A program made the translations under genes and the position numbers. A stretch of DNA of 64,000 bases, from positions 2,432,501 through 2,496,500 of the forward strand of contig NZ_VFNX01000001.1 of the NCBI RefSeq assembly GCF_006715785.1, read 5' to 3'. This document shows positions 4,409 to 17,158 of the stretch, piece by piece. The DNA comes from Streptomyces puniciscabiei (GTDB taxonomy: Bacteria > Actinomycetota > Actinomycetes > Streptomycetales > Streptomycetaceae). Positions within the stretch are counted from its first letter, which is position 1; every line of letters starts with the position of its first letter. Below the pieces are notes generated by a model. It did not search any database, was not told where the DNA came from, and saw only the letters and a list, made by a program, of their open reading frames with translations.

Positions 4409-5611
4409 TCAGCCGTGGGCCGACGCCAGGTGTTTCGCCAGGCGCGGTGAGGCGAACTCCGTGCCGCAGACGAAACGCATCACCGGGCCGTACGACGACG
4501 CCGCCGGCAGACCGGTGAAGTACAGGCCGGGAACGGACGAGACGAAGCCGGGGCCGAGCTTCGGCGTGCCGCGGCTCACCGCGAGCCGGGTGCGCAGTTC
4601 GTGGCCGAGGAAGTCCATCGCCGCGACGTCGACGCGGTAGCCGGTGGCGGCGATGACGTGGTCGGCGGTGAGCCGCTCGGTGTGCCCGCCGTGGGTGCGG
4701 ACGGTGAGGACGGGGCTGCCGCCCGCTGCCTCGGCGCTCATCACCCGCTCCACGTCCTGCACCTGCACCGCGCTCTCGAAGCGCTCGCGCAGCCACCACG
4801 CGCCGAGCGGCCCGAGGACCCGGCGGACCAGGAAGTGGCGGGTGGCCTCGGGCAGGTAGCGGTAGGGGTGCGGGTAGTAGCTGAACGCCCACAGCGACCA
4901 CGCGCGGCCGAACGGGGACTCGGGGCGCAGCTTCGGCTGGTCCCAGGGCGGGGCGCCGAAGGCCACCCGGCCGCGGCCGCGCGCGACCACACGCACGCGT
5001 GCCCCCGCCTCGGCGGCGAGCGCCGCGGTCTCCAGCGCGGACTGGCCGGCGCCGACCACGATGAGGTCCTTGCCGGCGAAACGGCTCAGGTCGTGGTGCT
5101 GGGAGCTGTGCGAGACCGGGCCGGTGGGCGCCGGTCCGTCGGCCGCGGCTTCCGCGAGCTCCGCCGGCAGATGCGCGAGGCCCGACAGCCCGGTGGCCAC
5201 GACGACCGCGCGCGCGGTGAACATCTCCCCCGAGTCCAGCTTCAGTTCGAAGCCGCCGCTCTTGTCGCGGTCCACCGAGACGACCCGGACCCCCTCCAGG
5301 TCGGGGACGAGCTTCTGCTGGAACCACTCGCCGTAGGCGATGAAGGTCTCCACCGGGATGATGTCCTCGTCGGTCACCAGGCGGCGGATGCCGGCCGCGT
5401 CGCAGTAGTCGGCGAGGGTGTGGCCGGGCTGCGGGCAGTCGAGGTTCGAGGCGGCGGGTGTCGACTTCAGGAGCATGCCCTCGGGCATGTGGTCGCGCCA
5501 GCTGACCATGGGGTCACCGAAGACGCGGACGGGGATGCCGCGCGCCCGCAGATGGGCGGCGGTGGACAGGCCGAACGGCCCGGCCCCGATGACTGCAACC
5601 GGTCGAGTCAC
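4409..5611 (-). CDS. FMO-like FAD/NAD(P)-dependent oxidoreductase
   Basis: The product has about 400 residues with two dinucleotide-binding sites: the N-terminal GAGPFG fingerprint at 9-14 for FAD, and VVGAGQSALETAA in the middle for NAD(P)H. A VSHSSQHHDL segment precedes the second site, as in flavin-containing monooxygenases and lysine or ornithine N-hydroxylases. The C-terminal VPGLYFTGLPAA segment is the usual FAD-closing strand. GTG at 5611 is chosen because GGGAGGG lies about 6 bases upstream; an upstream GTG at 5641 has no properly spaced ribosome site. It follows the ATP-grasp gene by 45 bases and is probably co-transcribed. That suggests a small biosynthetic or tailoring pair, but the substrate is unknown. 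Confidence 0.85.
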   Translation of the reverse strand: MTRPVAVIGAGPFGLSTAAHLRARGIPVRVFGDPMVSWRDHMPEGMLLKSTPAASNLDCPQPGHTLADYCDAAGIRRLVTDEDIIPVETFIAYGEWFQQKLVPDLEGVRVVSVDRDKSGGFELKLDSGEMFTARAVVVATGLSGLAHLPAELAEAAADGPAPTGPVSHSSQHHDLSRFAGKDLIVVGAGQSALETAALAAEAGARVRVVARGRGRVAFGAPPWDQPKLRPESPFGRAWSLWAFSYYPHPYRYLPEATRHFLVRRVLGPLGAWWLRERFESAVQVQDVERVMSAEAAGGSPVLTVRTHGGHTERLTADHVIAATGYRVDVAAMDFLGHELRTRLAVSRGTPKLGPGFVSSVPGLYFTGLPAASSYGPVMRFVCGTEFASPRLAKHLASAHG

Positions 5612-5656
5612 GAAGTCCCTCCCCAGGACATGGTGCGCCACTCTCCGTGGCCTTGC

Positions 5657-6919
5657 CTACTTCGTGGAGGTGCTGCCGCGGCGGTTGGTCCGCCACAGCT
5701 GGTAGAGGTGCTTCGCGCCCGGGCGCACGAAGCGGGCGAGCATCGTGAGGAACGGCAACGGGTCGTCACCCGCGAGCCAGGCCAGCTCGGTCCCGCTCGC
5801 CTTCGCCGGCGCGTGCGGCGTCGTATAGCCGCTGCGGCGGTAGGCGAGGAGAGCGGGCAGGTCGATGTTCTCCACGATGTAGCGCCGGCCGGCCCGCTGT
5901 TCCCCCTCCGGGACGGGGCGGCCGGTCAGGTTCAGATGCATCGCGCGTACGACGTCCACGCCCGACTCGTTCTCGAACAGCCGGAACTGGGCGCCCATGC
6001 GCGGGTTGAAGTCGAGGAGCTTGTACCGTCCGTCGCGCCGGTCGAAGCGCAGGTCGAGGTCGATGATGCCGCTGTAGCCGATCTGTTTGATGAAACGCGC
6101 GGCGAGGTCGGTGAGTTCCGGGTTGTCGACGACGTACGCGTTCGCCGTCATGCCGGCGTGCGGCGGCCAGGAGCGGACCTTGACGCCGGTGAACATCGCG
6201 AGGGGACTTGCGTCCTGGTCGAAGCAGGCGTGCACGATCCAGTCCTCGGCCTCCTCGCGCGGCAGGTACTCCTGGAGGATCACCCCCGGCCGCGTGCCCC
6301 AGTCGCGGGCCAGGGCGAGCAGGCCCTGGCGGGTGGCGATCCGCGTGGTGCCGCCCACGGCGGGCCGGGTGCGCCGGACGAACGCCTCCCGGTTCTTGGC
6401 CACCACTGGGAAGCGCGCCGTGTCGGCGAAGGCGACGACGTCCTCGTACGACTCCGGGAACGCCGACGCGGGGCTCGCGATGCCGTGCTCCACGCACAGT
6501 TCGTGCAGGCCCTGCTTGCTGGCGAGCCGGCGCGGCAGCGCGGGGTCGACACGCGGGAACAGAAAGGAACCGGCCAGCTCTTCCTGGTGCTCGGCGATCA
6601 GTACGGCGGCCTCCTCGTCCGTGGGGACGAGAACGGCGGGGCGGCCGATGCGGCGGCCGACGCGCAGCAGGCCCTCGACCAGATGGCCGGGTTCCTCCGC
6701 ACCGGTCGTCGGCCACACGAAGGCCTTCTTCAGGTAGCGCGAGGAGGCCGCGGGCGTGTAGGCGTCCTCGGTGATGGCGTACATGGGCACGCCGAGCCGG
6801 CCCAGGCTGCGGATCGCGCCGACGCCGCCGTGGTGCAGCGGATAGTCGCCGAACTTGACGATCAGTCCCGGTACGTCCCGGTCCGCCTCGAACGGCACAC
6901 CGACGGTGTCTCCGGCCAC
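5657..6919 (-). CDS. ATP-grasp family ligase
   Basis: A product of about 420 residues with the carboxylate-amine ligase ATP-grasp layout: an N-terminal Rossmann-like part (GGVGAIRSLGRLGVPMYAI), a central nucleotide-binding part (FPVVAKNREAF near residue 150; VILQEYLPREEAEDWIVHACF), and a C-terminal metal/ATP site with DLDLRFDRRDGRYKLLDFNP, where Asp and Asn coordinate magnesium. Such enzymes join a carboxylate to an amine through an acyl phosphate. Two in-frame GTG codons (6919 and 6931) both follow G-rich ribosome-like sequence; 6919 is used here. The gene is first in a two-gene unit with the FMO-like oxidoreductase and is divergent from fahA. The substrate is not predictable. Confidence 0.82.
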   Translation of the reverse strand: MAGDTVGVPFEADRDVPGLIVKFGDYPLHHGGVGAIRSLGRLGVPMYAITEDAYTPAASSRYLKKAFVWPTTGAEEPGHLVEGLLRVGRRIGRPAVLVPTDEEAAVLIAEHQEELAGSFLFPRVDPALPRRLASKQGLHELCVEHGIASPASAFPESYEDVVAFADTARFPVVAKNREAFVRRTRPAVGGTTRIATRQGLLALARDWGTRPGVILQEYLPREEAEDWIVHACFDQDASPLAMFTGVKVRSWPPHAGMTANAYVVDNPELTDLAARFIKQIGYSGIIDLDLRFDRRDGRYKLLDFNPRMGAQFRLFENESGVDVVRAMHLNLTGRPVPEGEQRAGRRYIVENIDLPALLAYRRSGYTTPHAPAKASGTELAWLAGDDPLPFLTMLARFVRPGAKHLYQLWRTNRRGSTSTK

Positions 6920-7055
6920 GGGTCCCCCCACGTGTCCCCCCAATGGAACGGACCCACCCCGTCCGTGTCCCCAAAGGACGCTAAGCCGGAATTGCCGCCT
7001 CCGACAAGGCCTATTCGGACATTGCGAACTCTTTAGACAGGGTGCGAGCAACCTT

Positions 7056-7070
7056 TCGAAGCCTCTTCGA
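7056..7070. promoter_or_regulatory. Inverted repeat between divergent ATP-grasp and fahA genes
   Basis: TCGAAG-CCT-CTTCGA is a perfect 6-3-6 inverted repeat, flanked on both sides by CCTTTCG. It lies in the AT-richer 283-base divergent region and is a plausible operator. No regulator gene is adjacent. Confidence 0.35.
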
Positions 7071-7202
7071 CACGACCTTTCGGACACCGTGACGGGTGCC
7101 GCAGAAGGCTCTGCCCAAGACACGCATCACGGCCGTAACGTGTGGCGCGACCACATGGAACGAGCGCCATGCACGGCCCGGCTGAGAGTGAGGCAGCACC
7201 CC

Positions 7203-8420
7203 ATGCCCCCCTTCGACGTCCCCGAGGGCGACCCCTTCGGCCCACACAACCTTCCCTATGGCGTGTTCTCGCCCTCCGGCAGCACGGAGCGGAGGGTCGG
7301 CGTCCGGCTCGGAGACCAGGTCCTCGACGCTGGTGCCGCGGCCGCCGCCCTCGGCTCGCCGCACCACGCGCTGCTCGCGCGGCCCACCCTCAACACGCTG
7401 CTGGCCGCCGGCCGCCCGGCCTGGACGGAGGTACGGCGCGCCGTCACGGCCTGGGTCACGGACCCCGCGCACCGCGAGGCCGTCGAGCCGTTGTTCCACC
7501 CCCTGTCCGAGGTGACCCTGCACCTGCCCTTCGAGGTGGCGGACTACGTCGACTTCTACGCCTCGGAGAACCACGCCCGCAACGTCGGCCGGATCTTCCG
7601 CCCGGACGCCGAGGACTCCCTCACCCCCAACTGGAAGCACCTGCCGATCGGTTACCACGGCCGCTCCGGCACGGTCGTCGTCTCCGGCACGGACGTCGTA
7701 CGGCCGTCCGGGCAGCGCAAGGGCCCGGCCGATCCGGCACCCGTCTTCGGCCCGTCGATCCGGCTGGACATCGAGGCCGAGGTCGGCTTCGTCGTGGGCG
7801 TGCCGTCCGCGCTGGGCCGGCCGGTCACGCTCGGCGACTTCCGCGAGCACGTCTTCGGGCTGTGCCTGCTGAACGACTGGTCCGCACGGGACATCCAGGC
7901 CTGGGAGTACGTTCCCCTCGGCCCCTTCCTCGGCAAGTCCTTCGCGACCTCGGTGTCGGCATGGATCACTCCGCTGGAAGCGCTGGACCACGCGCGCGTG
8001 GCGCCTCCGGAGCGCACGCACCCGCTGCTGCCCTACCTGGACGACTCGGCTCCGGGCATCGAGCCCGGCGGCTACGACCTGCGGATCTCCATCGCCGTCA
8101 ACGGCCAAGTGGTCTCCGAGCCGCCTTTTTCGACCATGTACTGGACCGCCGCCCAGCAACTCGCCCACATGACGGTGAACGGCGCCTCGCTGCGCACCGG
8201 CGACCTGTACGGCTCGGGCACGGTGAGCGGCCCCGAGGAGCGTCAGCGCGGCTCGCTGCTGGAGCTGACCTGGAACGGCCGCGACCCCCTGGAACTCCCG
8301 GAGGGCAAGCGGGCCTTCCTGGAGGACGGTGACGTGGTGACCCTGTCGGCCTGGGCCCCCGGCGCGGACGGACGCCGGGTCGGACTCGGGGAGGTCAGCG
8401 GACGGGTCGTGGCGGGGTGA
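7203..8420 (+). CDS. fahA: Fumarylacetoacetase (tyrosine degradation)
   Basis: The 405-residue product matches the length and layout of two-domain fumarylacetoacetases. It has an N-terminal SH3-like domain (NLPYGVFSP) and the catalytic FAH domain with DFYASENHARNVGRIFRP, the metal-ligand segment DIEAEVGFVVG (E-x-E) and LNDWSARDIQAWEYVPLGPFLGKSF. It hydrolyses 4-fumarylacetoacetate to fumarate and acetoacetate, the last step of homogentisate catabolism. ATG at 7203 follows GTGAGG. The other homogentisate genes are not in this window, so fahA acts as a stand-alone gene here, as is common in Streptomyces. A hairpin terminator follows. Confidence 0.95.
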   Translation: MPPFDVPEGDPFGPHNLPYGVFSPSGSTERRVGVRLGDQVLDAGAAAAALGSPHHALLARPTLNTLLAAGRPAWTEVRRAVTAWVTDPAHREAVEPLFHPLSEVTLHLPFEVADYVDFYASENHARNVGRIFRPDAEDSLTPNWKHLPIGYHGRSGTVVVSGTDVVRPSGQRKGPADPAPVFGPSIRLDIEAEVGFVVGVPSALGRPVTLGDFREHVFGLCLLNDWSARDIQAWEYVPLGPFLGKSFATSVSAWITPLEALDHARVAPPERTHPLLPYLDDSAPGIEPGGYDLRISIAVNGQVVSEPPFSTMYWTAAQQLAHMTVNGASLRTGDLYGSGTVSGPEERQRGSLLELTWNGRDPLELPEGKRAFLEDGDVVTLSAWAPGADGRRVGLGEVSGRVVAG

Positions 8421-8503: not shown

Positions 8504-8679
8504 GAGTCGTGCGTTCACGGCGGACCGATCTCGGCGCGACCGCCCCGTCGACCGCCTCCTGGGCCCGGCCCCGGCCCCGGTCGACCGCTGCGCCCGCTGA
8601 ACCCGTGTCGCCCGCCCGGCGCGAGCAGAGGGTGCAGAACGGCCGTACGGCCCTACCGGACGGACCGAGGGGCGAGCCG

Positions 8680-9000
8680 ATGAGCTGCGCTGCCGTCCGG
8701 GGCGACAGGCCGGCCGAGGGCGAACGACTGCCGACGGTACGGCAGCCGGCCGCGGACCTCGGCCTGGCGGCCGGCACCCTGGCCCACGCCTACCGCGAAC
8801 TGGAAGCAGCCGCCCTGATCCGCGCACGGCTCGGTGCGGGGACTCGGGTGGCCCGCCGCCCCCTCGCACCCGCCGCCGCGAGACAACCGACCTCACCGAT
8901 GGCACCAGGGACTTCGTGGCCCGGGCAGGGACCCTGGGGTTCGGAGAGGACGACGTACTGGAGGCAGTGCGGCAGGCCTTTCGGGAGCGGGAGTCCTGAG
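8680..9000 (+). pseudogene. Frameshifted GntR/YtrA-type regulator
   Basis: From ATG 8680 (GAGGGGCGAGCC upstream) the frame reads a clear winged-helix end: GERLPTVRQ, ADLGLAAGTLAHAYRELEAA and IRARLGAGTRVARR. The typical YtrA-subfamily C-terminus (DFVARAGTLGFGEDDVLEAV, then RQAFRERES and stop at 9000) follows, but in the +1-shifted frame. The shift lies near 8855-8890, in a C-rich run. Several normally conserved positions have also drifted (QPA for QLA, LAH for VAR), and the N-terminal dimer helix is hard to find, so true decay is more likely than a sequencing error. Because of the shift, the N-terminal frame reads straight into the M56 peptidase gene. Confidence 0.7.
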
Positions 9001-9204
9001 GCCTGCCGCACCGGAAGCCGGGCAAGCCGGACCCGAGGGAGAGCGGGTGGCCTCAACCACGCGACCGATCACCGCCGAGACCTGCCTCTCGCCGCCCCGC
9101 ACCGTCATACTGGGCGGACACGCAACACGCGATGCACCCTCGGCGCATCGCCCCGCACCACCCGACACCCGCACAACTCTCCGACCAGGAACCGGAGCCC
9201 CGGC

Positions 9205-10143
9205 ATGACCGTCTGCCTGCTCCTGCTGAGCGTCGTCGCCCTGACGGCCGCCCTGCCGGCGCCGCGCGCCCTGACCCGTGCCGCCTGGCCCGAGCGGGAA
9301 CCCGTCGTCGCACTGTGGGTGTGGCAGTGCCTGGTCGCCACCGTCCTGCTGTGCTGCCTGGCCGCACTCGTCCTGGGCGCGGCAGCCGTTTTCCACACCG
9401 TCCGCGACCACGTCTTCGCCCCCGCTCCGCCCTCCGTCACCGCCGCCTACGACCTCTCCTCCGCGCCGGTGTGGGCCTCCGCCCTCACCGTGCTGCTGGC
9501 CTGCGGGGCCGCCTGGACGACGGCGATGCTGGCCCGGGAACTCGTCGAGGCCCGCCGCAGCCGCGGCCAGGCCCGCGCACAGCTGCGCGAGCGCGCCCCC
9601 GACCTGCCGGCCGGGCTGCCGGCGGCACGCGGCCCGATGCTGGTGCTGGAGGACGAGTACCCGGACGCCTGGTGGATGCCCGGACATCCGCCGCAACTGG
9701 TCGTCACCACCGGCGCCCTCCACCGGCTCACCGACCATCAGCTGGACGCCGTCCTCACCCACGAGCGCGGGCACGCGCGTGCCCACCACGACTGGCTGCT
9801 GCACCTGTCCACCGCGCTCGCGACCGGCTTCCCGCGCGTGCCGCTCTTCGCCCACTTCTGCGACCAGACGCACCGCCTGGTCGAACTGGCCGCCGACGAC
9901 ACGGCGTCCCGGCGCTGCGGCCACCTCACCACGGCCCTCGCGCTGATCGAGCTGAACCAGCACCGGGGCGTCCTGTCCTGCGCCTCCAGCCGCCGCCTCC
10001 TCGGCGAACGCGTGGACCGACTGCTGGAACCCCCGCCGCGGCTGCTGCGCCGGCACCGGGCCCTGACGACGACGGTGGCCGCCCTGGTGCCGCTGCTGCC
10101 GCTGCTGATCACGTTCGCGCCGGGGCTGACGGCACTGTCCTGA
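9205..10143 (+). CDS. M56 (BlaR1-like) membrane metallopeptidase
   Basis: The 312-residue product has hydrophobic segments at the N-terminus (about 1-20), about 35-57, about 85-105, and a last one at about 288-310. The zinc motif HERGH (His186, Glu187, His190) is followed about 45 residues later by VELAADDTA, which supplies the third ligand. That is the M56 layout of BlaR1/MecR1-type proteins without a penicillin-sensor domain. In actinobacteria such peptidases usually pair with a BlaI/CopY repressor; here the preceding regulator is a broken GntR gene instead. ATG at 9205 has GGAG about 8 bases upstream. The target of cleavage is unknown. Confidence 0.88.
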   Translation: MTVCLLLLSVVALTAALPAPRALTRAAWPEREPVVALWVWQCLVATVLLCCLAALVLGAAAVFHTVRDHVFAPAPPSVTAAYDLSSAPVWASALTVLLACGAAWTTAMLARELVEARRSRGQARAQLRERAPDLPAGLPAARGPMLVLEDEYPDAWWMPGHPPQLVVTTGALHRLTDHQLDAVLTHERGHARAHHDWLLHLSTALATGFPRVPLFAHFCDQTHRLVELAADDTASRRCGHLTTALALIELNQHRGVLSCASSRRLLGERVDRLLEPPPRLLRRHRALTTTVAALVPLLPLLITFAPGLTALS

Positions 10144-10276
10144 CCGGCTCACCGAGTGGCAGATCTTCCCGACCGGCGAGGAAAACCCACAGGTGAGCGG
10201 CGTATCCGACGCCTCCTCACCTGGCGCAACACTTCAGCAACACGACTTTCCCTACCGCATCGGTATGGTTCCAGCC

Positions 10277-11065
10277 ATGCCAGCCACCGACCGCCCCCGC
10301 GACCACGCCGGTCAGGGCGCCGCGGCCACCGTCGCCGCCCACCGCACGCGTCGTCGGCTGCGTGCGGACCGGGCCCGGCAGCTCGCTGACCTGCTGCGCC
10401 ACCAGATCCTCACCGGCGTCTTCCAGAACGGCCCCCTCCCTCACGAGTCCACCCTCGCCACCGACTACCGCGCCTCCCGCAACACCGTTCGCCAGGCCCT
10501 GGACCTCCTCAGGGCCGAGGGCCTGGTGGAACGGCTGCCCGGGGTCGGCACCGTGGTCGTCGCCCGGAAATACCCGCATGGGCTCGACCGTCTGATGGGC
10601 CTCGCGGAAACCCTCCGCGAACACGGCCACGTCACCAACGAGGTCCGCACCATGGGCCCCGCCCCCGCACCCGCCCCGGTCGCCGATCGCCTCCACGTCC
10701 CCGCCGGCGCCGACGTCCTCTACATCGAACGCCTGCGCCGCCTGAACGGCCTCCCCCTCTCCCTCGACCTCACCTACATCCCGCTCGACATCGGCACCGC
10801 CCTGCTCGGCGCCGACCTTGAGAACACCGACGTCTTCCGCCTCCTGGAAGCCATCACCGGCCGCCCACTCGGCCATGCCGAGATCACCCTGGAGGCGGTG
10901 ACCGCGGACGCCCACTCCGCCGCAGTACTCCAGGCCCCGCGCGGCGCCGCCGTACTGATGCTGGAACGCCTCACCCACCTCGCCGACGGCCGCCCCGTCG
11001 ACCTGGAGTTCATCCGCTTCCGCGGCGACCGGATCACCATGAGCGGCCTGCTCCACCGGTCGTAG
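10277..11065 (+). CDS. GntR family (HutC subfamily) regulator with UTRA domain
   Basis: The product has about 262 residues. The winged helix spans about 35-105 (ADLLRHQILTGVF, TLATDYRASRNTVRQALDLL, EGLVERLPGVGTVVV). It is followed by a UTRA ligand-binding domain (DVLYIERLRRLNGLPLSLDLTYI to LMLERLTHLADGRPVDLEFIRFRGDR). It is 47 bases upstream of, and in line with, the ferredoxin/ABC/flavoprotein genes and is their likely regulator. Start choice is uncertain. ATG 10277 is 7 bases behind a TATGGT hexamer, compatible with a leaderless transcript. ATG 10265 and GTG 10193 (GAGGA 10 bases upstream) are in frame. Known HutC members sense small organic acids, sugars or phosphonates. Confidence 0.85.
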   Translation: MPATDRPRDHAGQGAAATVAAHRTRRRLRADRARQLADLLRHQILTGVFQNGPLPHESTLATDYRASRNTVRQALDLLRAEGLVERLPGVGTVVVARKYPHGLDRLMGLAETLREHGHVTNEVRTMGPAPAPAPVADRLHVPAGADVLYIERLRRLNGLPLSLDLTYIPLDIGTALLGADLENTDVFRLLEAITGRPLGHAEITLEAVTADAHSAAVLQAPRGAAVLMLERLTHLADGRPVDLEFIRFRGDRITMSGLLHRS

Positions 11066-11112
11066 ACACCCCGCCGCACCCGCCCCTGCCTGCACGTTTC
11101 CTGGAGACAGCC

Positions 11113-11340
11113 ATGCCCTTGGCGCCCCAGCGGGCCGACGTGCCCGTGACCATCGACGAGTCGAAGTGCATCGACGGCTGCACCCTCTGCGTGGACATGT
11201 GCCCGCTGGACTCCCTCGCCATCGACGAGACGAACGGCAAGGCGTACATGCACGTCGACGAGTGCTGGTACTGCGGCCCCTGCGCAGCCCGCTGCCCCAC
11301 CGGGGCCGTCACGGTCAACATGCCCTACCTGCTCCGGTGA
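11113..11340 (+). CDS. AprB-like ferredoxin with two [4Fe-4S] clusters
   Basis: A 75-residue protein with two cluster motifs, CIDGCTLCVDMCP (residues 19-31) and CWYCGPCAARCP (near 55-66). The arrangement resembles the N-terminal ferredoxin part of dissimilatory APS reductase beta subunit (AprB), including the KAYMHVDECW spacer, but the long AprB C-terminal tail is absent. It would pass electrons to or from the AprA/FrdA-like flavoprotein encoded at the end of the same operon. ATG at 11113 has GGAGAC 6 bases upstream. Only 14 bases separate it from the binding-protein gene. Confidence 0.9.
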   Translation: MPLAPQRADVPVTIDESKCIDGCTLCVDMCPLDSLAIDETNGKAYMHVDECWYCGPCAARCPTGAVTVNMPYLLR

Positions 11341-11354
11341 GAGGCACCACCACC

Positions 11355-12698
11355 ATGAAACGAACAGCAGTTGCCGCATCCGCCGCCGCGCTCCTCCTCC
11401 CCCTGTCGGCCTGCGGCGGCAGCGCCGAGGCAGGCAGCGGCTCCACGGTCACCGTGACCGTCGGCTACCAGTCCAAGACCATCAACACCGTCACCGCCGG
11501 CACCCTGCTGCGCTCCCTCGGCGCCTTCGAGAAGGACCTCAACTCCCTGCACGACGGGCACACCTACAAGGTCGACTGGCAGGACTACGCCACCGGCGCC
11601 CCGATCACCGCCCAGATGACCGCGGGCAAGATCGACATTGGTTCGATGGGCGACTTCCCGCTGCTGCTCAACGCCGCCCGCGGCAAACAGCTCGGCCGCC
11701 CCACCCACCTGGTCTCGGTCACCGGCTACAACCTGCGCGGCGGCCTCAACACCGTCGTGACCACACCCGGCTCGAAGCTCACGTCCTTGCAGGACCTGAA
11801 GGGCAAGAAGGTCTCTACAAGCATCGGCTCCGCCGCCGACGGCACCCTCGTACGGGCCCTGCAGCGCGCCGGCATCGACCCGGACAACGGCATCTCCAAA
11901 CTCAACCAGCAGCCTGCGGTGGGTGCTTCGGCGCTGTCCTCCGGCGGCGTGGACGCCCTGTCGCAGTTCGTCGCCTGGCCGGGCCTGCTCGCCTACCAGG
12001 ACAAGGCGAAGGCGCTGTACGACGGCGCCCAGCTGAACCTGCCCACCTTCCACGGTGTCACCGCACGCGAGGACTTCGCCAAGCGGCATCCGGCAGTGCT
12101 GAAGGCGTTCCTCAAGGCCCAGGCAGAGGCGACGGACTACCTCAACGCCCACCCCGTCGCCGCCGCCGAGAAGGTCGCGAAGGCCACCGGCCTGCCCGCC
12201 GAGGTCGTCTACCTCTACAACGGCGCCCACGGCATCGCCACCTTCGACCCGGCCGTCAAACCACAGCTCGTCTCCGCACTGAGGCAGGACGTGTCCGTGC
12301 TGAAGGCCGCCAAGCTGACCGGCGACATCGACGTGGGCTCCTTCGTCGACGACCAGTACGTCAAGAAGGCCCTCGGCGCCTCCTACGCCCGGCGCCTCGC
12401 CGACGGGCCCGCACCCGCCGCGAACGAGGTATGGCCCAAGGGCAGCGATAAGACGGTCTCCTTCAAGTCCGCGAAGGAACTGCTGGCGTACGTGGCCGGG
12501 CACCAGGGCGGCATCCGCGCCGCCTACGTGCCTGACGCGACCACCGGCACCCTCTGGTTCGCCGACAAGGCAGTCTGGGTGGCCGACAGCGACCAGCTGC
12601 TGCCCTTCGTCACCCCGGCGACCGCGCAGGCCTACATCACCGCCCACGGCGGCGCCCGCACGGTGTCGTACCGCGAGGCTCTGGAGCGCGCCTCATGA
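11355..12698 (+). CDS. ABC importer lipoprotein (NMT1/SsuA-type) with C-terminal NosL-like domain
   Basis: The 447-residue product starts with a lipoprotein signal ending in LPLSAC, so Cys20 is the lipidated residue. Residues about 30-345 are a nitrate/sulfonate/taurine-type periplasmic-binding fold: VTVGYQSKTINTVTAG, AGKIDIGSMGDFPLLLNAA, DLKGKKVSTSIGSAADG, REDFAKRHPAVLKAFLKAQA. The last 90 residues (about 358-447; VSFKSAKELLAYV, IRAAYVPDATTGTLWFADKA, TAQAYITAHGG) look like the NosL/copper-chaperone fold fused to its end. The cysteine that NosL uses for copper is missing, so the domain may have another ligand or a structural role. Its stop overlaps the permease start (ATGA). Confidence 0.85.
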   Translation: MKRTAVAASAAALLLPLSACGGSAEAGSGSTVTVTVGYQSKTINTVTAGTLLRSLGAFEKDLNSLHDGHTYKVDWQDYATGAPITAQMTAGKIDIGSMGDFPLLLNAARGKQLGRPTHLVSVTGYNLRGGLNTVVTTPGSKLTSLQDLKGKKVSTSIGSAADGTLVRALQRAGIDPDNGISKLNQQPAVGASALSSGGVDALSQFVAWPGLLAYQDKAKALYDGAQLNLPTFHGVTAREDFAKRHPAVLKAFLKAQAEATDYLNAHPVAAAEKVAKATGLPAEVVYLYNGAHGIATFDPAVKPQLVSALRQDVSVLKAAKLTGDIDVGSFVDDQYVKKALGASYARRLADGPAPAANEVWPKGSDKTVSFKSAKELLAYVAGHQGGIRAAYVPDATTGTLWFADKAVWVADSDQLLPFVTPATAQAYITAHGGARTVSYREALERAS

Positions 12699-13609
12699 CC
12701 CGGCGCCCCCTGGCCCGGTATGCGCTGCGGACGGCCTCCCTCGCCGCCTTCCTCGGGCTTTGGCAGTTGCTGACCAGCCTGAACGTCGACCTGTGGCTGC
12801 GCTTCTCGCAGTTCCCGACGGTCACCGACGTGGCCCGTGCCTTCGCCGACCGGCTCTCCGGAAGCGACTACTGGACGGACCTCACCGACAGCCTCACCCG
12901 GATCCTCACCGGCTTCGCGCTGGCGGCCGTCCTGGGCGTGGCGACCGGCGTGCTCGTGGCCCGGTCGCGCCTCGCCGAGGATCTGCTCGGCCCGGTCCTG
13001 GAGGTCATCCGCCCGATCCCGGCGATCGCCCTCGTCCCGGTCGCGATCCTGCTCTTCCCGTCCAATGAGCAGGGCATCGTCTTCATCACCTGCACCGCCG
13101 CCTTCTTCCCCGTGCTGGTCTCCACCCGGCACGCGGTCCGCGCGCTGACTCCCGTCTGGGAAGAGGCGGTACGCACCATGGGCGGCGGCCGGCTGCGGAT
13201 CCTCGGCTCGGTGGTGCTGCCGGGCGCGCTGCCCGGCATCTTCGGCGGGCTGTCGGTCGGCATCGGCGTGTCGTGGATCTGCGTGATCTCCGCCGAGATG
13301 ATCTCCGGCCAGTACGGGGTCGGCTACCGCACCTGGCAGGACTACACGGTGGTGAACTACCCCGGCGTCTTCGTCGGCATGGTCACCATCGGCGTCCTCG
13401 GTTGGGTCACCTCCACGGCCGTGGAACTGCTCGGCCGGCGCCTGACCCGCTGGCTGCCCCGGACCTCGTACGTCCCCGGCGGCCGCACCCGCGTGCCCCG
13501 GCCTGTCACCGTCCCCGCTGGTGCCGACCGCGATTCCGAGCACCAGGCCCAGCCCGAGCAACACAGCCAGAAGGACGCCGAGGAGGCCCGCGATGAGCAC
13601 CTCGTCTGA
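12695..13609 (+). CDS. ABC transporter permease (SsuC/TauC type)
   Basis: A 304-residue inner-membrane protein with about six hydrophobic segments (for example ILTGFALAAVLGVATGVLVA, PIPAIALVPVAILLF, YPGVFVGMVTIGVLGW). The cytoplasmic EAA loop reads EEAVRTMGGGRLRILGSVVLPGALPGI, with the invariant glycine, and docks on the ATPase. It belongs to the BPD-transport-1 family of nitrate, sulfonate and taurine importers. The last 40 residues are hydrophilic. Start ATG overlaps the stop of the binding-protein gene by four bases, and its 3' end overlaps the ATPase gene by 17 bases. Both overlaps suggest translational coupling. Confidence 0.9.
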   Translation: MTRRPLARYALRTASLAAFLGLWQLLTSLNVDLWLRFSQFPTVTDVARAFADRLSGSDYWTDLTDSLTRILTGFALAAVLGVATGVLVARSRLAEDLLGPVLEVIRPIPAIALVPVAILLFPSNEQGIVFITCTAAFFPVLVSTRHAVRALTPVWEEAVRTMGGGRLRILGSVVLPGALPGIFGGLSVGIGVSWICVISAEMISGQYGVGYRTWQDYTVVNYPGVFVGMVTIGVLGWVTSTAVELLGRRLTRWLPRTSYVPGGRTRVPRPVTVPAGADRDSEHQAQPEQHSQKDAEEARDEHLV

Positions 13610-14381
13610 GATCGTCACCGCTCCTGTCGCGCCCGCGTCGGAGGCCGGACGCGGCACCCGGCTCACCTTCCGTTCCGCCGTGCTCGGCAGGCCGGACGCG
13701 CCGGTGCTGTACGACGTCGACCTGGAGGTCTCCCCCGGCGAGATCCTCACCGTCGTCGGCCCCTCCGGCTGCGGCAAGTCCACATTGCTGCGCACCCTCG
13801 CCGGCCTGCTGCCTCCCCTGGGCGGCGCCGCCGAGGTGGACGGCGTCCCGCTGACCGGACCGTCGGCCGACCGCGCGCTGGTCTTCCAGGAGGACGCGCT
13901 GCTGCCCTGGCGCACCTTGCGCGGGAACGTCGCACTGCCGCTCGCCATCAGCGGCGTACCGCGTTCCGAACGCCGTTCCCTGGCCGAGTCGTGGCTCGCC
14001 CGCGTCGGACTCAGTGCACAGGCGGGGCAGTTGCCGCACCGGGTGTCCGGCGGGCAGCGCCAACGCGCCCAGTTGGCCCGGGCGCTGGCCGACAGCCCGC
14101 GCGCCGTCCTGATGGACGAGCCCTTCGGCGCCCTCGACGCACAGACCCGTTCCGGCATGCAGGACCTGCTGGTGGAGGTGTTGCGCGGCACGGGCGCGAC
14201 CATCGTCTTCGTCACGCACGACGTGGACGAGGCCCTCTTCCTCGGAGACCGCGTCGCCCTGCTCGGCTCCGGCCGGGTGGCCGCCGTACGGGACGTGCCC
14301 GGGCCACGTGACCGCGGGGCCGTGGACGACCCCGCCCGCGTGGCCCTGCGGCGCGACATCCTCACCTCGCTCGGCTCCTGA
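13593..14381 (+). CDS. ABC transporter ATP-binding protein (SsuB/TauB type)
   Basis: A 262-residue ATPase with Walker A GPSGCGKST at 56-64, a Q-loop in VFQEDALLPWR, the signature SGGQ at 152-155, Walker B AVLMDEPFGALD and the switch histidine in VTHDVDEAL. The closest type by these motifs is the nitrate/sulfonate/taurine import ATPase. It powers uptake through the preceding permease. ATG 13593 has GAGGAGG 6 bases upstream, inside the permease coding end; an upstream in-frame ATG at 13521 lacks a ribosome site. Eleven bases separate it from the flavoprotein gene. Confidence 0.93.
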   Translation: MSTSSEIVTAPVAPASEAGRGTRLTFRSAVLGRPDAPVLYDVDLEVSPGEILTVVGPSGCGKSTLLRTLAGLLPPLGGAAEVDGVPLTGPSADRALVFQEDALLPWRTLRGNVALPLAISGVPRSERRSLAESWLARVGLSAQAGQLPHRVSGGQRQRAQLARALADSPRAVLMDEPFGALDAQTRSGMQDLLVEVLRGTGATIVFVTHDVDEALFLGDRVALLGSGRVAAVRDVPGPRDRGAVDDPARVALRRDILTSLGS

Positions 14382-14392
14382 AAGGCACCCCG

Positions 14393-17158
14393 GTGACCAC
14401 CCCCGCCACCACTTCCCCGGAGATTCCCGCCGTCGCCGACGCCGAGGAGCTGACCTGCGACGTCCTCGTCATCGGCGGCGGCACCGCCGGCACCATGGCC
14501 GCGCTGACCACCGCCGAGCGCGGCGCGAACGTCCTGCTGCTGGAGAAAGCCCACGTCCGTCACTCCGGCGCGCTCGCCATGGGCATGGACGGCGTCAACA
14601 ACGCGGTCATCCCCGGCCGCGCCGAACCCGACGACTACGTCGCCGAGATCACCCGCGCCAACGACGGCATCGTCGACCAGTCCACCGTCCGCCAGACCGC
14701 CACCCGCGGTTTCGCCATGGTGCAGCGGCTGGAGTCGTACGGCGTCAAGTTCGAGAAGGACGAGCACGGTGAGTACGCGGTGCGCCAGGTGCATCGCTCC
14801 GGCTCGTACGTACTGCCCATGCCAGAGGGCAAGGACGTCAAAAAGGTCCTGTACCGGCAGCTCCGGCGGCGCGAGATGCGGGAGCGCATCAGGATCGAGA
14901 ACCGGGTGATGCCGGTCCGGGTCCTGACCGCCGAGGGGCGGGCCGTGGGCGCCGCCGGATTCAACACCCGTACCGGCGCCTTCGTCACCGTCCGCGCCGG
15001 CGCCGTCATCCTCGCCACCGGCGCCTGCGGCCGGCTCGGCCTGCCCGCCTCCGGCTACCTGTACGGCACCTACGAGAACCCCACCAACGCCGGGGACGGG
15101 TACGCCATGGCCTACCACGCCGGCGCCGAGCTGACCGGCATCGAGTGCTTCCAGATCAACCCTCTGATCAAGGACTACAACGGCCCGGCCTGTGCCTACG
15201 TCGCCAATCCCTTCGGCGGCTACCAGGTCAACCGGCACGGTGAGCGGTTCGTCGACTCCGACTACTGGTCGGGGCAGATGATGGCCGAGTTCGCCGCCGA
15301 GGTCGCCAGCGACCGCGGCCCGGTCTACCTCAAGCTCAGCCACCTCCCGGAGGAGTCGGTCTCCGCACTGGAGTCGATCCTGCACTCCACCGAACGGCCC
15401 ACCCGGGGCACCTTCCACGCCGGCCGCGGGCACGACTACCGCACCCACGACGTCGAGATGCACATCTCCGAGATCGGCCTGTGCGGCGGCCACTCCGCCT
15501 CCGGCGTCCGCGTCGACGACCACGCCCGCACGACCGTCCCCCGCCTGTACGCCGCCGGCGACCTCGCCTGCGTCCCGCACAACTACATGATCGGCGCGTT
15601 CGTCTTCGGCGACCTCGCGGGCGCGGACGCCGCCCAGTACACCGCGTACGAGGGGGAACTTCCCGCGGACCAGGTGCGTGAGGCGCACGAGCTGATCTAC
15701 CGCCCGCTGCGCAACCCCGACGGCCCGCCGCAGACCCAGGTCGAGTACAAGCTGCGCCGTTTCGTGAACGACTACGTGGCACCACCGAAGTCCGGCGCCC
15801 GGCTCTCCCTCGCCCTGGAGGCCTTCGAGCGGATGCAGGCCGACATCGCCGCCATGGGCGCCCGCACGCCGCACGAGCTGATGCGCTGCGCCGAGGTCAC
15901 CTTCATCCGGGACTGCGCCGAGATGGCCGCCCGCGCTTCCCTCGCCCGCACCGAGTCCCGTTGGGGCCTCTACCACGACCGTCTCGACCACCCCGGCCGC
16001 GACGACGTCTCCTGGTTCCACCATCTCGATCTGCACAAGTCCCCCTCTGGTGCGATGGAGTTCACGGCCCGCCCCGTGGCTCCGTACCTGGTCCCGGTCG
16101 AGGAGTTCGCGCCGGTCGGCGGTCCCTCCCGGAAGCTGGGCGAGGTCCGACCGGAGCACGTGGCCACGGCGGGGCCGCGCGAGGTGGCGCCGGTCGCGGC
16201 CGAACGGACGTCCGCGCCCGCCACCGCCTCCGCCGACCGGGCCGACGCGCCGGGCAGTGCTTCGCCCCGGCTCCTGGAACTGGTGGAGCTGGCCGAGGCG
16301 GAACCCGAACTCGCCGTCGTCGAGCCCTACTTGGCCGACGCGGACCCCGCCGTGCGCCGTACGGCCGTCTCGGTCCTGACCGAGACCGTGCCACCCGGCA
16401 CCGGGCAGGCCCTGGCCGGTACCCTGTCCGATCCCGATGCCGGGGTACGCGCCGCCGCCGCTGCCTCGCTCCGCGAACTCGTCGAGACCCTGCCGCCCGA
16501 ACCCGCCCTGGGCACCGCCCTCGCCGGCGCCCTCGCCGCGGCCGACCCCGTGGTCCGCGCCGCTGCCCTCGATGTGCTGCGCGCCCTGCGGCTCGGCCAG
16601 GCCGGGGTGTTCGCGGCGGCGCTGGACGACCCCGACATCGCCGTGCGCACCGAGGCCGTACGAGCGCTCGTCTCCGTCGACGCGGTCCGGCCGCTCGCGG
16701 GCGCCGCGGACGATCCCGCACGGGAGGTCCGGGTCGCCGTGGCCAAGGCCCTGGCCGCCGTCGGCTCGGCGTCCCTGACCGCGGCCGACCGGGAGCTGCT
16801 GACCGCCGCCCTGGACCGGCTCACCGAGGACAGCGATCCCCTGGTGCGAGGGGCCGCGTTCGCCGCGCTGGCCGGCACCGGCTGCCAAGGCCCGCTCGCC
16901 GACCGAGCCGTCGCCGCGCTGTCCCACCCGGCCTGGCAGGTCCGCTCCGGCGCCGCCACGGCGCTGTCGGCCGCGCCCTCCGAGATCGCCGTCGCCGCCC
17001 TGGCCAAGGCGCTGGCCGACACCAACGCCGATGTGCGCAAGGCGGCGGTGCTGTCCCTGACCCGGCACCGGGCCACCGAGGAGGCACGCACAGCCCTCGC
17101 CACGGCCACGGCCGACACGGACGCGGACGTCAGGGCCTACGCGGCTCGGGGGCTGTGA
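14393..17158 (+). CDS. AprA/FrdA-like flavoprotein fused to C-terminal HEAT repeats
   Basis: This is a 921-residue two-part protein. Residues about 20-600 are an FAD-dependent succinate dehydrogenase/fumarate reductase/APS reductase-alpha-type flavoprotein: GGGTAG at 28-33, the HSGALAMGMDGVNNA loop, AGAVILATGACGR, and NAGDGYAMAYHAGAELTGIE. An FAD-closing RLYAAGDLACV is preceded by HISEIGLCGGHSASG. After a Pro/Ala-rich linker (about 590-622), residues about 624-921 are HEAT/PBS-lyase-type helical repeats, seen as repeated DPAVRRTAVSVL, DAGVRAAAAASL and NADVRKAAVLSL units. It is the last gene of the operon and probably works with the ferredoxin. GTG start at 14393. The repeats may dock partners or the membrane; the substrate is unknown. 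Confidence 0.88.
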   Translation: MTTPATTSPEIPAVADAEELTCDVLVIGGGTAGTMAALTTAERGANVLLLEKAHVRHSGALAMGMDGVNNAVIPGRAEPDDYVAEITRANDGIVDQSTVRQTATRGFAMVQRLESYGVKFEKDEHGEYAVRQVHRSGSYVLPMPEGKDVKKVLYRQLRRREMRERIRIENRVMPVRVLTAEGRAVGAAGFNTRTGAFVTVRAGAVILATGACGRLGLPASGYLYGTYENPTNAGDGYAMAYHAGAELTGIECFQINPLIKDYNGPACAYVANPFGGYQVNRHGERFVDSDYWSGQMMAEFAAEVASDRGPVYLKLSHLPEESVSALESILHSTERPTRGTFHAGRGHDYRTHDVEMHISEIGLCGGHSASGVRVDDHARTTVPRLYAAGDLACVPHNYMIGAFVFGDLAGADAAQYTAYEGELPADQVREAHELIYRPLRNPDGPPQTQVEYKLRRFVNDYVAPPKSGARLSLALEAFERMQADIAAMGARTPHELMRCAEVTFIRDCAEMAARASLARTESRWGLYHDRLDHPGRDDVSWFHHLDLHKSPSGAMEFTARPVAPYLVPVEEFAPVGGPSRKLGEVRPEHVATAGPREVAPVAAERTSAPATASADRADAPGSASPRLLELVELAEAEPELAVVEPYLADADPAVRRTAVSVLTETVPPGTGQALAGTLSDPDAGVRAAAAASLRELVETLPPEPALGTALAGALAAADPVVRAAALDVLRALRLGQAGVFAAALDDPDIAVRTEAVRALVSVDAVRPLAGAADDPAREVRVAVAKALAAVGSASLTAADRELLTAALDRLTEDSDPLVRGAAFAALAGTGCQGPLADRAVAALSHPAWQVRSGAATALSAAPSEIAVAALAKALADTNADVRKAAVLSLTRHRATEEARTALATATADTDADVRAYAARGL

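Follow-up and report, generated by a model that had tools for sequence, protein, structure and literature searches.

What does a bacterium take up, and what does it do with it, when the genes for an ATP-binding cassette (ABC) importer stand in one row with those for a flavoprotein and a ferredoxin? We address this question for positions 10277-17158 of a 64,000-nucleotide stretch of Streptomyces puniciscabiei DNA (NCBI RefSeq assembly GCF_006715785.1, contig NZ_VFNX01000001.1, positions 2,432,501-2,496,500; here called the window, to which all bare coordinates refer), part of a genome of 9.1 Mb in nine contigs whose nearest named database proteins come from Streptomyces. Judged by comparative sequence analysis, the six genes found there form a real, conserved and uncharacterised importer-plus-enzyme operon that occurs in three bacterial phyla. 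We propose, with about an even chance of being right, that it would serve organosulfur acquisition, by import of a sulfonate-like compound and flavin/iron-sulfur-dependent release of sulfite by an enzyme resembling AprBA, the adenosine 5'-phosphosulfate (APS) reductase. To our knowledge, bacterial release of sulfur from sulfonates is understood for a few enzymes only. According to the accessible text of PMC4267179, some 95% of the sulfur in soil is bound in organic form. The features discussed here, read from the list of open reading frames (ORFs) and from Pfam and NCBIfam domains, are the following; gene boundaries are the likely ones taken from the sequence.

10221-10246, + strand: conserved 26-bp element just upstream of gntR, GTGGCGCAAYnnnnCnGCAACACCAC (genus consensus; single letters vary)
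10277-11065, + strand, ATG start: gntR, GntR-family regulator with a UTRA ligand domain (PF00392, PF07702)
11113-11340, + strand: ferredoxin of 75 amino acids with eight Cys and two [4Fe-4S] motifs (PF12838/PF00037)
11355-12698, + strand, ATG start: SsuA/TauA-like binding lipoprotein (NMT1, PF09084; TIGR01728, 144 bits)
12695-13609, + strand: ABC permease (PF00528, BPD_transp_1)
13593-14381, + strand, ATG start: ABC ATPase (PF00005); the longest ORF runs from 13521
14393-17158, + strand, GTG start (taken from sequence): whole flavoprotein-HEAT gene, 921 amino acids
14393-16110, + strand: FAD-binding catalytic part of the 921-residue protein, fumarate reductase superfamily (PF00890, FAD_binding_2; PF02910, Succ_DH_flav_C)
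16250-17158, + strand: C-terminal HEAT-repeat superhelix of the 921-residue protein (PF13646/PF02985)

An earlier note, made from the window sequence, had described six co-directional, tightly spaced or overlapping genes ending in a 921-residue AprA/FrdA-like flavoprotein with HEAT repeats; positions, strand, domains and intergenic spacing (47, 14, -4, -17 and 11 bp, in gene order) bear this out.

Conservation and distribution

Comparison of gene order indicates that the six genes are one conserved operon. A search for conserved order, which the earlier note had proposed, returns the arrangement of regulator, ferredoxin, binding protein, permease, ATPase and fused flavoprotein-HEAT gene in 20 of 21 other actinobacterial loci, which excludes a chance grouping; the remaining locus (L178) differs only by the missing match for GntR. 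These 21 comprise 20 regions fetched from the 50, 12 and 16 overlapping rows above the family cut-off in the three surveys given below, plus one Nonomuraea locus. Identity to the window proteins is 79-95% for the flavoprotein part and 73-99% for the ferredoxin, exceeding the 50-86% of the binding protein, so that conservation is highest in the enzyme and its ferredoxin.

The idea of a lone gene set does not hold, since the 921-residue protein belongs to a family that is widespread and already named, though uncharacterised: it scores 1645 bits against a cut-off of 1196 with NF010374 (PRK13800; residues 10-921) and 864 bits against 587 with NF006131 (PRK08275), two models that name its own family. 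Counted with the window's own genome, proteins above the NF010374 cut-off are found in 16 of 61 relatives, in 50 of 150 genomes of the same genus (52 of 150 with a match at E 1e-100) and, across the phylum, in 12 of 396 genomes, representing three of 236 genera. A scan of species genomes gave at least 573 confirmed relatives, the best 80 of which all belong to Pseudomonadota, and the family can thus be called widespread. Two plasmid searches matched 145 and 50 overlapping records, of which 15 were examined for context, chosen for spread; the plasmid matches listed have about 56-62% identity and come from Pseudomonadota and one cyanobacterium, from which three more cyanobacteria were found. One scan of viral contigs gave no relative, and a virus-borne origin of the set was rejected on that basis.

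Outside Actinobacteria the arrangement varies. Beta- and gammaproteobacterial loci carry the regulator, flavoprotein and ferredoxin; genes for the binding protein, permease and ATPase are often next, and HEAT follows, in many cases with a DUF971 gene. In five alphaproteobacterial loci DUF971 comes first, followed by the flavoprotein, ferredoxin and HEAT genes, after which stand a Crp/Fnr regulator and the importer. In Mesorhizobium HEAT is directly followed by an insertion sequence element and not by an importer; in Methylocystis the importer is divergent and upstream, DUF971 is not annotated, and GNAT and amidase genes follow HEAT. The cyanobacterial loci read flavoprotein, ferredoxin, HEAT and Mrp/NBP35, with an importer nearby in three of four. 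Separately, on a Nostoc edaphicum plasmid (L191:7926-14081), two HAD genes and methyltransferase, GNAT and VOC genes lie between flavoprotein and ferredoxin.

Over 116 loci taken together, matches were obtained for ferredoxin in 116, HEAT in 113, GntR in 101, ATPase in 98, permease in 92, binding protein in 87 and DUF971 in 75, counts in which contig ends cut some loci and some ATPase, binding-protein and GntR matches may be unrelated copies. Flavoprotein, ferredoxin and HEAT therefore make up the core (all three in 113 of 116 loci), and the importer is a common, not a constant, companion. The near-constancy of this trio, together with its fusion in Actinobacteria, makes the chemistry and maturation of an AprBA-like enzyme directly testable in common laboratory strains.

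Proposed function and its sulfur neighbourhood

In the proposed scheme the GntR/UTRA regulator would sense a metabolite and probably control this operon only, and the SsuA/TauA-like importer would take up an anionic organosulfur compound, with a sulfonate the likeliest candidate. The flavin adenine dinucleotide (FAD) protein and the two-cluster ferredoxin, to go by homology and constant pairing, would form an AprBA-like alpha/beta enzyme in the cytoplasm, in which electrons would pass through two [4Fe-4S] clusters to FAD; the flavin may then act on the sulfur-bearing group, freeing sulfite for assimilation, and the HEAT part would load iron-sulfur clusters or FAD, or act as a scaffold. The direction of electron flow is suggested by a single locus, that of Methylobacterium radiotolerans (L194:15326-16457), where FdxA and ferredoxin-NADP reductase genes directly follow the ATPase and point to NADPH as electron source and to a reductive reaction.

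Sulfur enters this proposal through the neighbours in other phyla. A TauE/SafE sulfite exporter gene adjoins the set in Aquabacterium and in three of the four cyanobacterial plasmid loci (Leptolyngbya and two Pseudanabaena), and in the fourth, Nostoc, sulfonate-binding proteins take its place. Plasmid B of Sinorhizobium americanum has TauD in the vicinity, together with importer genes for sulfonate and sulfate; Cupriavidus has NtaA/DmoA-type and SsuA genes there, and in Sinorhizobium fredii two luciferase-type (SsuD superfamily) oxidoreductase genes come after the ATPase. Four Burkholderiaceae contigs (L055, L062, L064, L066) show an SsuD-superfamily gene directly before gntR, on the opposite strand. 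For counting, a strict sulfur match was defined as an SsuD/NtaA-type, TauD, TauE or AsfA-type match outside the core. Among 80 genome contigs, which contributed none of the sulfur reference proteins, 13 loci have strict matches (17 matches in 1145 kb), rising to 20 loci and 31 matches when SsuA-, acyl-CoA-dehydrogenase- and YeiH-type proteins are added. The earlier view of uptake followed by a flavin/iron-sulfur redox step thus fits, with sulfur favoured by the neighbours outside Actinobacteria and hardly by the actinobacterial ones; within Actinobacteria the link to sulfur comes from homology.

One close parallel is asfRABC, the aryl-desulfonation toolkit of Pseudomonas putida S-313, described in the accessible text of PMC4267179 as a reductase/ferredoxin system with a LysR-type regulator, AsfR; there, disruption of asfA abolished the use of arylsulfonates and left that of alkylsulfonates intact. 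In both systems a flavoprotein of the FrdA/AprA superfamily has as neighbours a ferredoxin with two clusters and an ABC importer of SsuA type; they differ in the regulator, LysR in asfRABC (PMC4267179, as far as accessible) and GntR/UTRA here, and in the HEAT repeats present here and the DUF971 present in relatives. Loci of AsfA type, with flavoprotein, ferredoxin, binding-protein and ABC genes, were found in Azospirillum, Paenibacillus and Shinella, and the same adjacency to ferredoxin and importer is seen in the window and in all 21 other actinobacterial loci. In make-up the operon resembles an Asf-type unit; its flavoprotein, though, is not AsfA. A search of the megaplasmid of C. metallidurans CH34 gave no close homologue of the flavoprotein, and identity to the probable AsfA of that strain (L020), which stood in for the P. 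putida S-313 sequence, is 31-33% (31% over 240 residues); L020 is probably AsfA because it alone among the four places matched in that record has, within the stretch fetched, an adjoining ORF for a two-cluster ferredoxin of 111 amino acids. With this distance and a GntR/UTRA in place of a LysR regulator, we reject the identification with AsfA.

S. americanum carries both kinds of flavoprotein next to each other. On its plasmid C (L188), an AsfA/AsfB-like pair (5558-7171 and 7171-7491) is followed on the same strand by the genes for DUF971, the flavoprotein, the ferredoxin and HEAT; the importer and two luciferase-type genes lie beyond. L188:5558-10866 thus holds two different AprA-superfamily flavoprotein/ferredoxin pairs in a single gene run. 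The same run is present in S. fredii NXT3 (L137:6648-8256), where the AsfA-like gene is fragmented. A Paenibacillus plasmid (L134:5977-10947) has two flavoprotein/ferredoxin pairs, at least one of them AsfA-like, around one binding-protein gene.

Several points weigh against the organosulfur reading. By sequence, the flavoprotein is not an AsfA orthologue. Among the actinobacterial loci, three of 21 have any sulfur match and one of 21 a strict one, which is no enrichment, so that the argument for sulfur is borrowed from other phyla; over the whole set of 116 loci, 94 are without a strict match. The plasmid sulfur counts are circular, since it was the case plasmids that supplied the reference proteins, and the control, with no sulfur match in 300 kb against about 4.5 strict matches expected at the case rate, is small and drawn from stretches of six of the plasmids; one control stretch carries cysND and a sulfotransferase gene, types outside the reference set. 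A binding-protein match is absent from 29 of the 116 loci, in some owing to contig ends, and among the ligands of binding-protein relatives are nitrate, bicarbonate, pyrroloquinoline quinone and thiamin precursors. A ligand-sensing GntR/UTRA regulator is unusual for sulfur-starvation control. The flavoprotein model is poor in the substrate domain (residues 210-372), for which reason no pocket was taken from it. Finally, a literature search with most subscription papers outside its scope returned no study of the family, expression and mutant data included, and the gene set is not named in the accessible portions of PMC8557817 and PMC13352529.

Could the flavoprotein and ferredoxin be a mere electron chain for a separate oxygenase that cleaves the C-S bond, for instance an SsuD-like enzyme encoded elsewhere, as in the proposal for AsfA/AsfB? 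The SsuD-superfamily genes beside the operon in S. fredii, S. americanum and the four Burkholderiaceae contigs would suit such a role, as would an SsuD-like gene elsewhere in the window's genome (465 bits, cut-off 518). We nevertheless consider this rather unlikely. In an alignment of 117 family sequences, conservation reaches 97% or more at 237 of 575 positions, as would be expected of a substrate site, and the 94 loci without a strict sulfur match have no SsuD/NtaA-type partner outside the core. AprA, the reductase of 3'-phosphoadenosine 5'-phosphosulfate (PAPS), SdhA and NadB are moreover catalytic subunits that act on their own substrates, not NAD(P)H-ferredoxin reductases.

The importer and its ligand

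The SsuABC/TauABC type of importer assigned in the earlier note is upheld by curated-model scores and by sequence and fold matches in the PDB. Like those systems, the operon has binding-protein, permease and ATPase genes in a row with sequence similarity throughout; unlike them, all three proteins stay below the curated cut-offs and the binding protein bears an extension. For the binding protein, TIGR01728 (SsuA_fam) gives 144.3 bits against a cut-off of 163.5 and TIGR01729 gives 85.6 against 304.25, so that the curated sulfonate-binding cut-offs are not reached; membership of the SsuA/TauA superfamily is clear. SsuA and TauA are its top PDB matches by sequence, and TauA (6ssy) and SsuA the first fold matches of its model (mean predicted local distance difference test, pLDDT, 73.9). 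The permease is nearest to the curated models SaoP, NtrB, SsuC and TauC, none of which reaches its cut-off, and the ATPase is TauB/NtrCD/SsuB-like, likewise below the curated cut-offs.

An alternative is a substrate without sulfur, another anion or a heterocycle (nitrate, bicarbonate, a pyrimidine, aminoethylphosphonate or similar), with the enzyme a ferredoxin-dependent dehydrogenase or reductase for it. Ligands in the NMT1/SsuA superfamily are diverse: the TauA structure among the fold matches was solved with 2-aminoethylphosphonate, and Thi5, CmpA and NrtA match too. The regulator is of the usually ligand-specific GntR/UTRA type with PhnF and HutC as nearest models, few actinobacterial loci have sulfur neighbours, and Nostoc and Methylocystis have GNAT and amidase genes close by. 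Set against this are the sulfite exporter, TauD, SsuD-superfamily and AsfA-like neighbours in other phyla, and we judge a non-sulfur substrate to be improbable, if worth keeping in mind.

The C-terminal extension of the binding protein, of about 90 residues, is NosL-like (PF05573, sub-threshold at 21.6 of 24 bits), and a similar match is seen in a Pseudomonas relative (20.9 bits). NosL is a copper chaperone domain.

The flavoprotein and ferredoxin

The earlier note had seen an AprBA-like pair, and on sequence and modelled fold the flavoprotein and ferredoxin may indeed be so described; the likeness stands, and APS chemistry proper is not supported. The closest solved structures by sequence are the alpha subunit of the PAPS reductase of Methanothermococcus thermolithotrophicus (MtPAPSR, 8a8o_A; 2e-54) and AprA (2e-27), and by fold 8a8o and 1jnr occupy ranks 1-3 for a model of moderate quality (mean pLDDT 68.8), whose HEAT residues 625-920 are helical with high pLDDT. 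The 8a8o enzyme is an alpha2beta2 assembly with FAD and two [4Fe-4S] clusters in which the catalytic residues of APS reductase are kept (accessible text of PMC10322725). Our pair shares with it and with AprBA the fold, the absence of a covalent-FAD His, the two-cluster ferredoxin and two active-site residues; it departs from them in two further active-site positions, in scores below the aprA and aprB cut-offs and in the added importer and HEAT parts.

The catalytic set of AprA, which we take to be Asn74, Trp234, Arg265 and His398, was located by alignment and surveyed in the 117-sequence family alignment. This comparison of catalytic residues, proposed in the earlier note, goes against AprA: the equivalents of Asn74 and of His398 (the latter matched through the PAPS reductase alignment) are kept in 117 of 117 sequences, and Trp234 is replaced by Tyr227 and Arg265 by Leu258, again in all 117. 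Fold and probable electron path therefore resemble those of AprBA, with a substrate site of the family's own, and since the active-site residues are neither those of APS reductase nor those of succinate dehydrogenase, the substrate should differ from both.

An APS-reductase-like enzyme with sulfite plus AMP, or (P)APS, as its substrates, serving sulfite detoxification or sulfate assimilation, would account for the (P)APS reductases as closest solved relatives and for the sulfite exporters beside some loci. It is very improbable in view of the two replacements, of the 122 bits of the flavoprotein against an aprA cut-off of 641.75 and the 37 bits of the AprB-like ferredoxin against an aprB cut-off of 135.65, and of an importer superfluous for such chemistry; on these cut-offs and residues, identity with APS reductase proper and with PAPS reductase is rejected. 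A soluble fumarate reductase/succinate dehydrogenase, as the NCBI family name (fumarate reductase/succinate dehydrogenase flavoprotein subunit) and the Succ_DH_flav_C domain would have it, is scarcely credible and was rejected, given 140.6 bits against 567.3 for sdhA_frdA, the alignment of what we take to be the SdhA site residues (FHPT motif, covalent-FAD His and catalytic Arg) with INPL, Gly and Gly in the family, and four other Succ_DH_flav_C genes in the genome that are probably of Sdh and NadB type. The database name is thus contradicted by the residues of the family.

HEAT, DUF971 and a possible role in iron-sulfur maturation

In the loci examined from Pseudomonadota and Cyanobacteriota (L013-L016, L136-L138, L189-L195) HEAT has a gene of its own; in Actinobacteria it is fused, the fusion suggesting that it acts on the enzyme. 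A CxCxxC motif is present in three of the four DUF971 sequences examined, a Mrp/NBP35 iron-sulfur carrier gene follows HEAT in all four cyanobacterial loci, and the 21 other actinobacterial loci gave no match for DUF971. Taken together, the DUF971 motif, the Mrp/NBP35 neighbours and the HEAT fusion point to a dedicated cluster-loading or scaffold module. The likeliest role of HEAT, with DUF971 and Mrp/NBP35 elsewhere, is thus in assembly or as a scaffold, providing the enzyme with its iron-sulfur clusters or its FAD. Such a module would in part resemble the cytosolic iron-sulfur targeting complex of eukaryotes. HCF101 offers a further likeness, in that DUF971 stands beside the enzyme, as does Mrp/NBP35 in the cyanobacterial loci; according to the accessible text of PMC7980591, HCF101 is a fused FSCA-ParA-DUF971 protein in which DUF971 carries the CxCxxC motif and has a function termed elusive, in contrast to the separate small proteins here. 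The broadest form of our proposal, a second, HEAT-scaffolded class of AprBA-type enzymes that would remove sulfite from imported sulfonates with electrons passed to the flavin and without an oxygenase, with an iron-sulfur loading module of its own, in aerobes of three phyla, is a speculation that we think unlikely to hold in full.

The regulator and its upstream element

The regulator, called HutC in the earlier note, is of HutC/PhnF type; at 103.3 bits against the curated HutC cut-off of 220 it does not qualify as HutC itself, and the PhnF cut-off is also missed. GntR/UTRA regulators usually respond to a specific ligand. Just upstream of gntR, the 26-bp element at 10221-10246 is present in 10 of 10 upstream regions from the same genus, and its GTGGCGCAAY part alone in six of 11 other actinobacterial upstream regions; this conservation makes it a probable operator for the operon's own regulator. 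The core pattern has one exact match in the genome, at 10222-10243 upstream of gntR, and four further matches with two mismatches each (a reversed control pattern gave one match). A wider regulon is rejected on these counts, and with one exact copy GntR probably controls this operon only, as a likely pathway-specific regulator.

A conserved CGGTAT at 10261-10266, about 10 bases 5' of the gntR start codon at 10277, may serve as the -10 element for a leaderless transcript. A riboswitch or leader RNA was rejected, as a search of Rfam gave only two sub-threshold matches, both within genes; one, at 11972-12026 inside the binding-protein gene, is to the Streptomyces RNA Scr2736 (28.5 of 43 bits).

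The fah/recQ site

The operon had been taken for an accessory insertion between fah/M56 and recQ. It is indeed an accessory, presence/absence cassette, and it has changed place. In the window the fah and recQ matches are 8785 bp apart; among 21 genomes of the same genus without the family, the two lie 85-1688 bp apart in 14, and in the other seven they are far apart in six (on different contigs in two), with one lacking a recQ match at threshold. Nine other loci of the genus divide into four at the fah/recQ site and five with neither gene in the stretch examined. Upstream of the operon, the ORF at 8509-10143 with an M48/M56-type peptidase has, upstream in the same frame, a sub-threshold GntR helix-turn-helix, perhaps a remnant or a separate gene.

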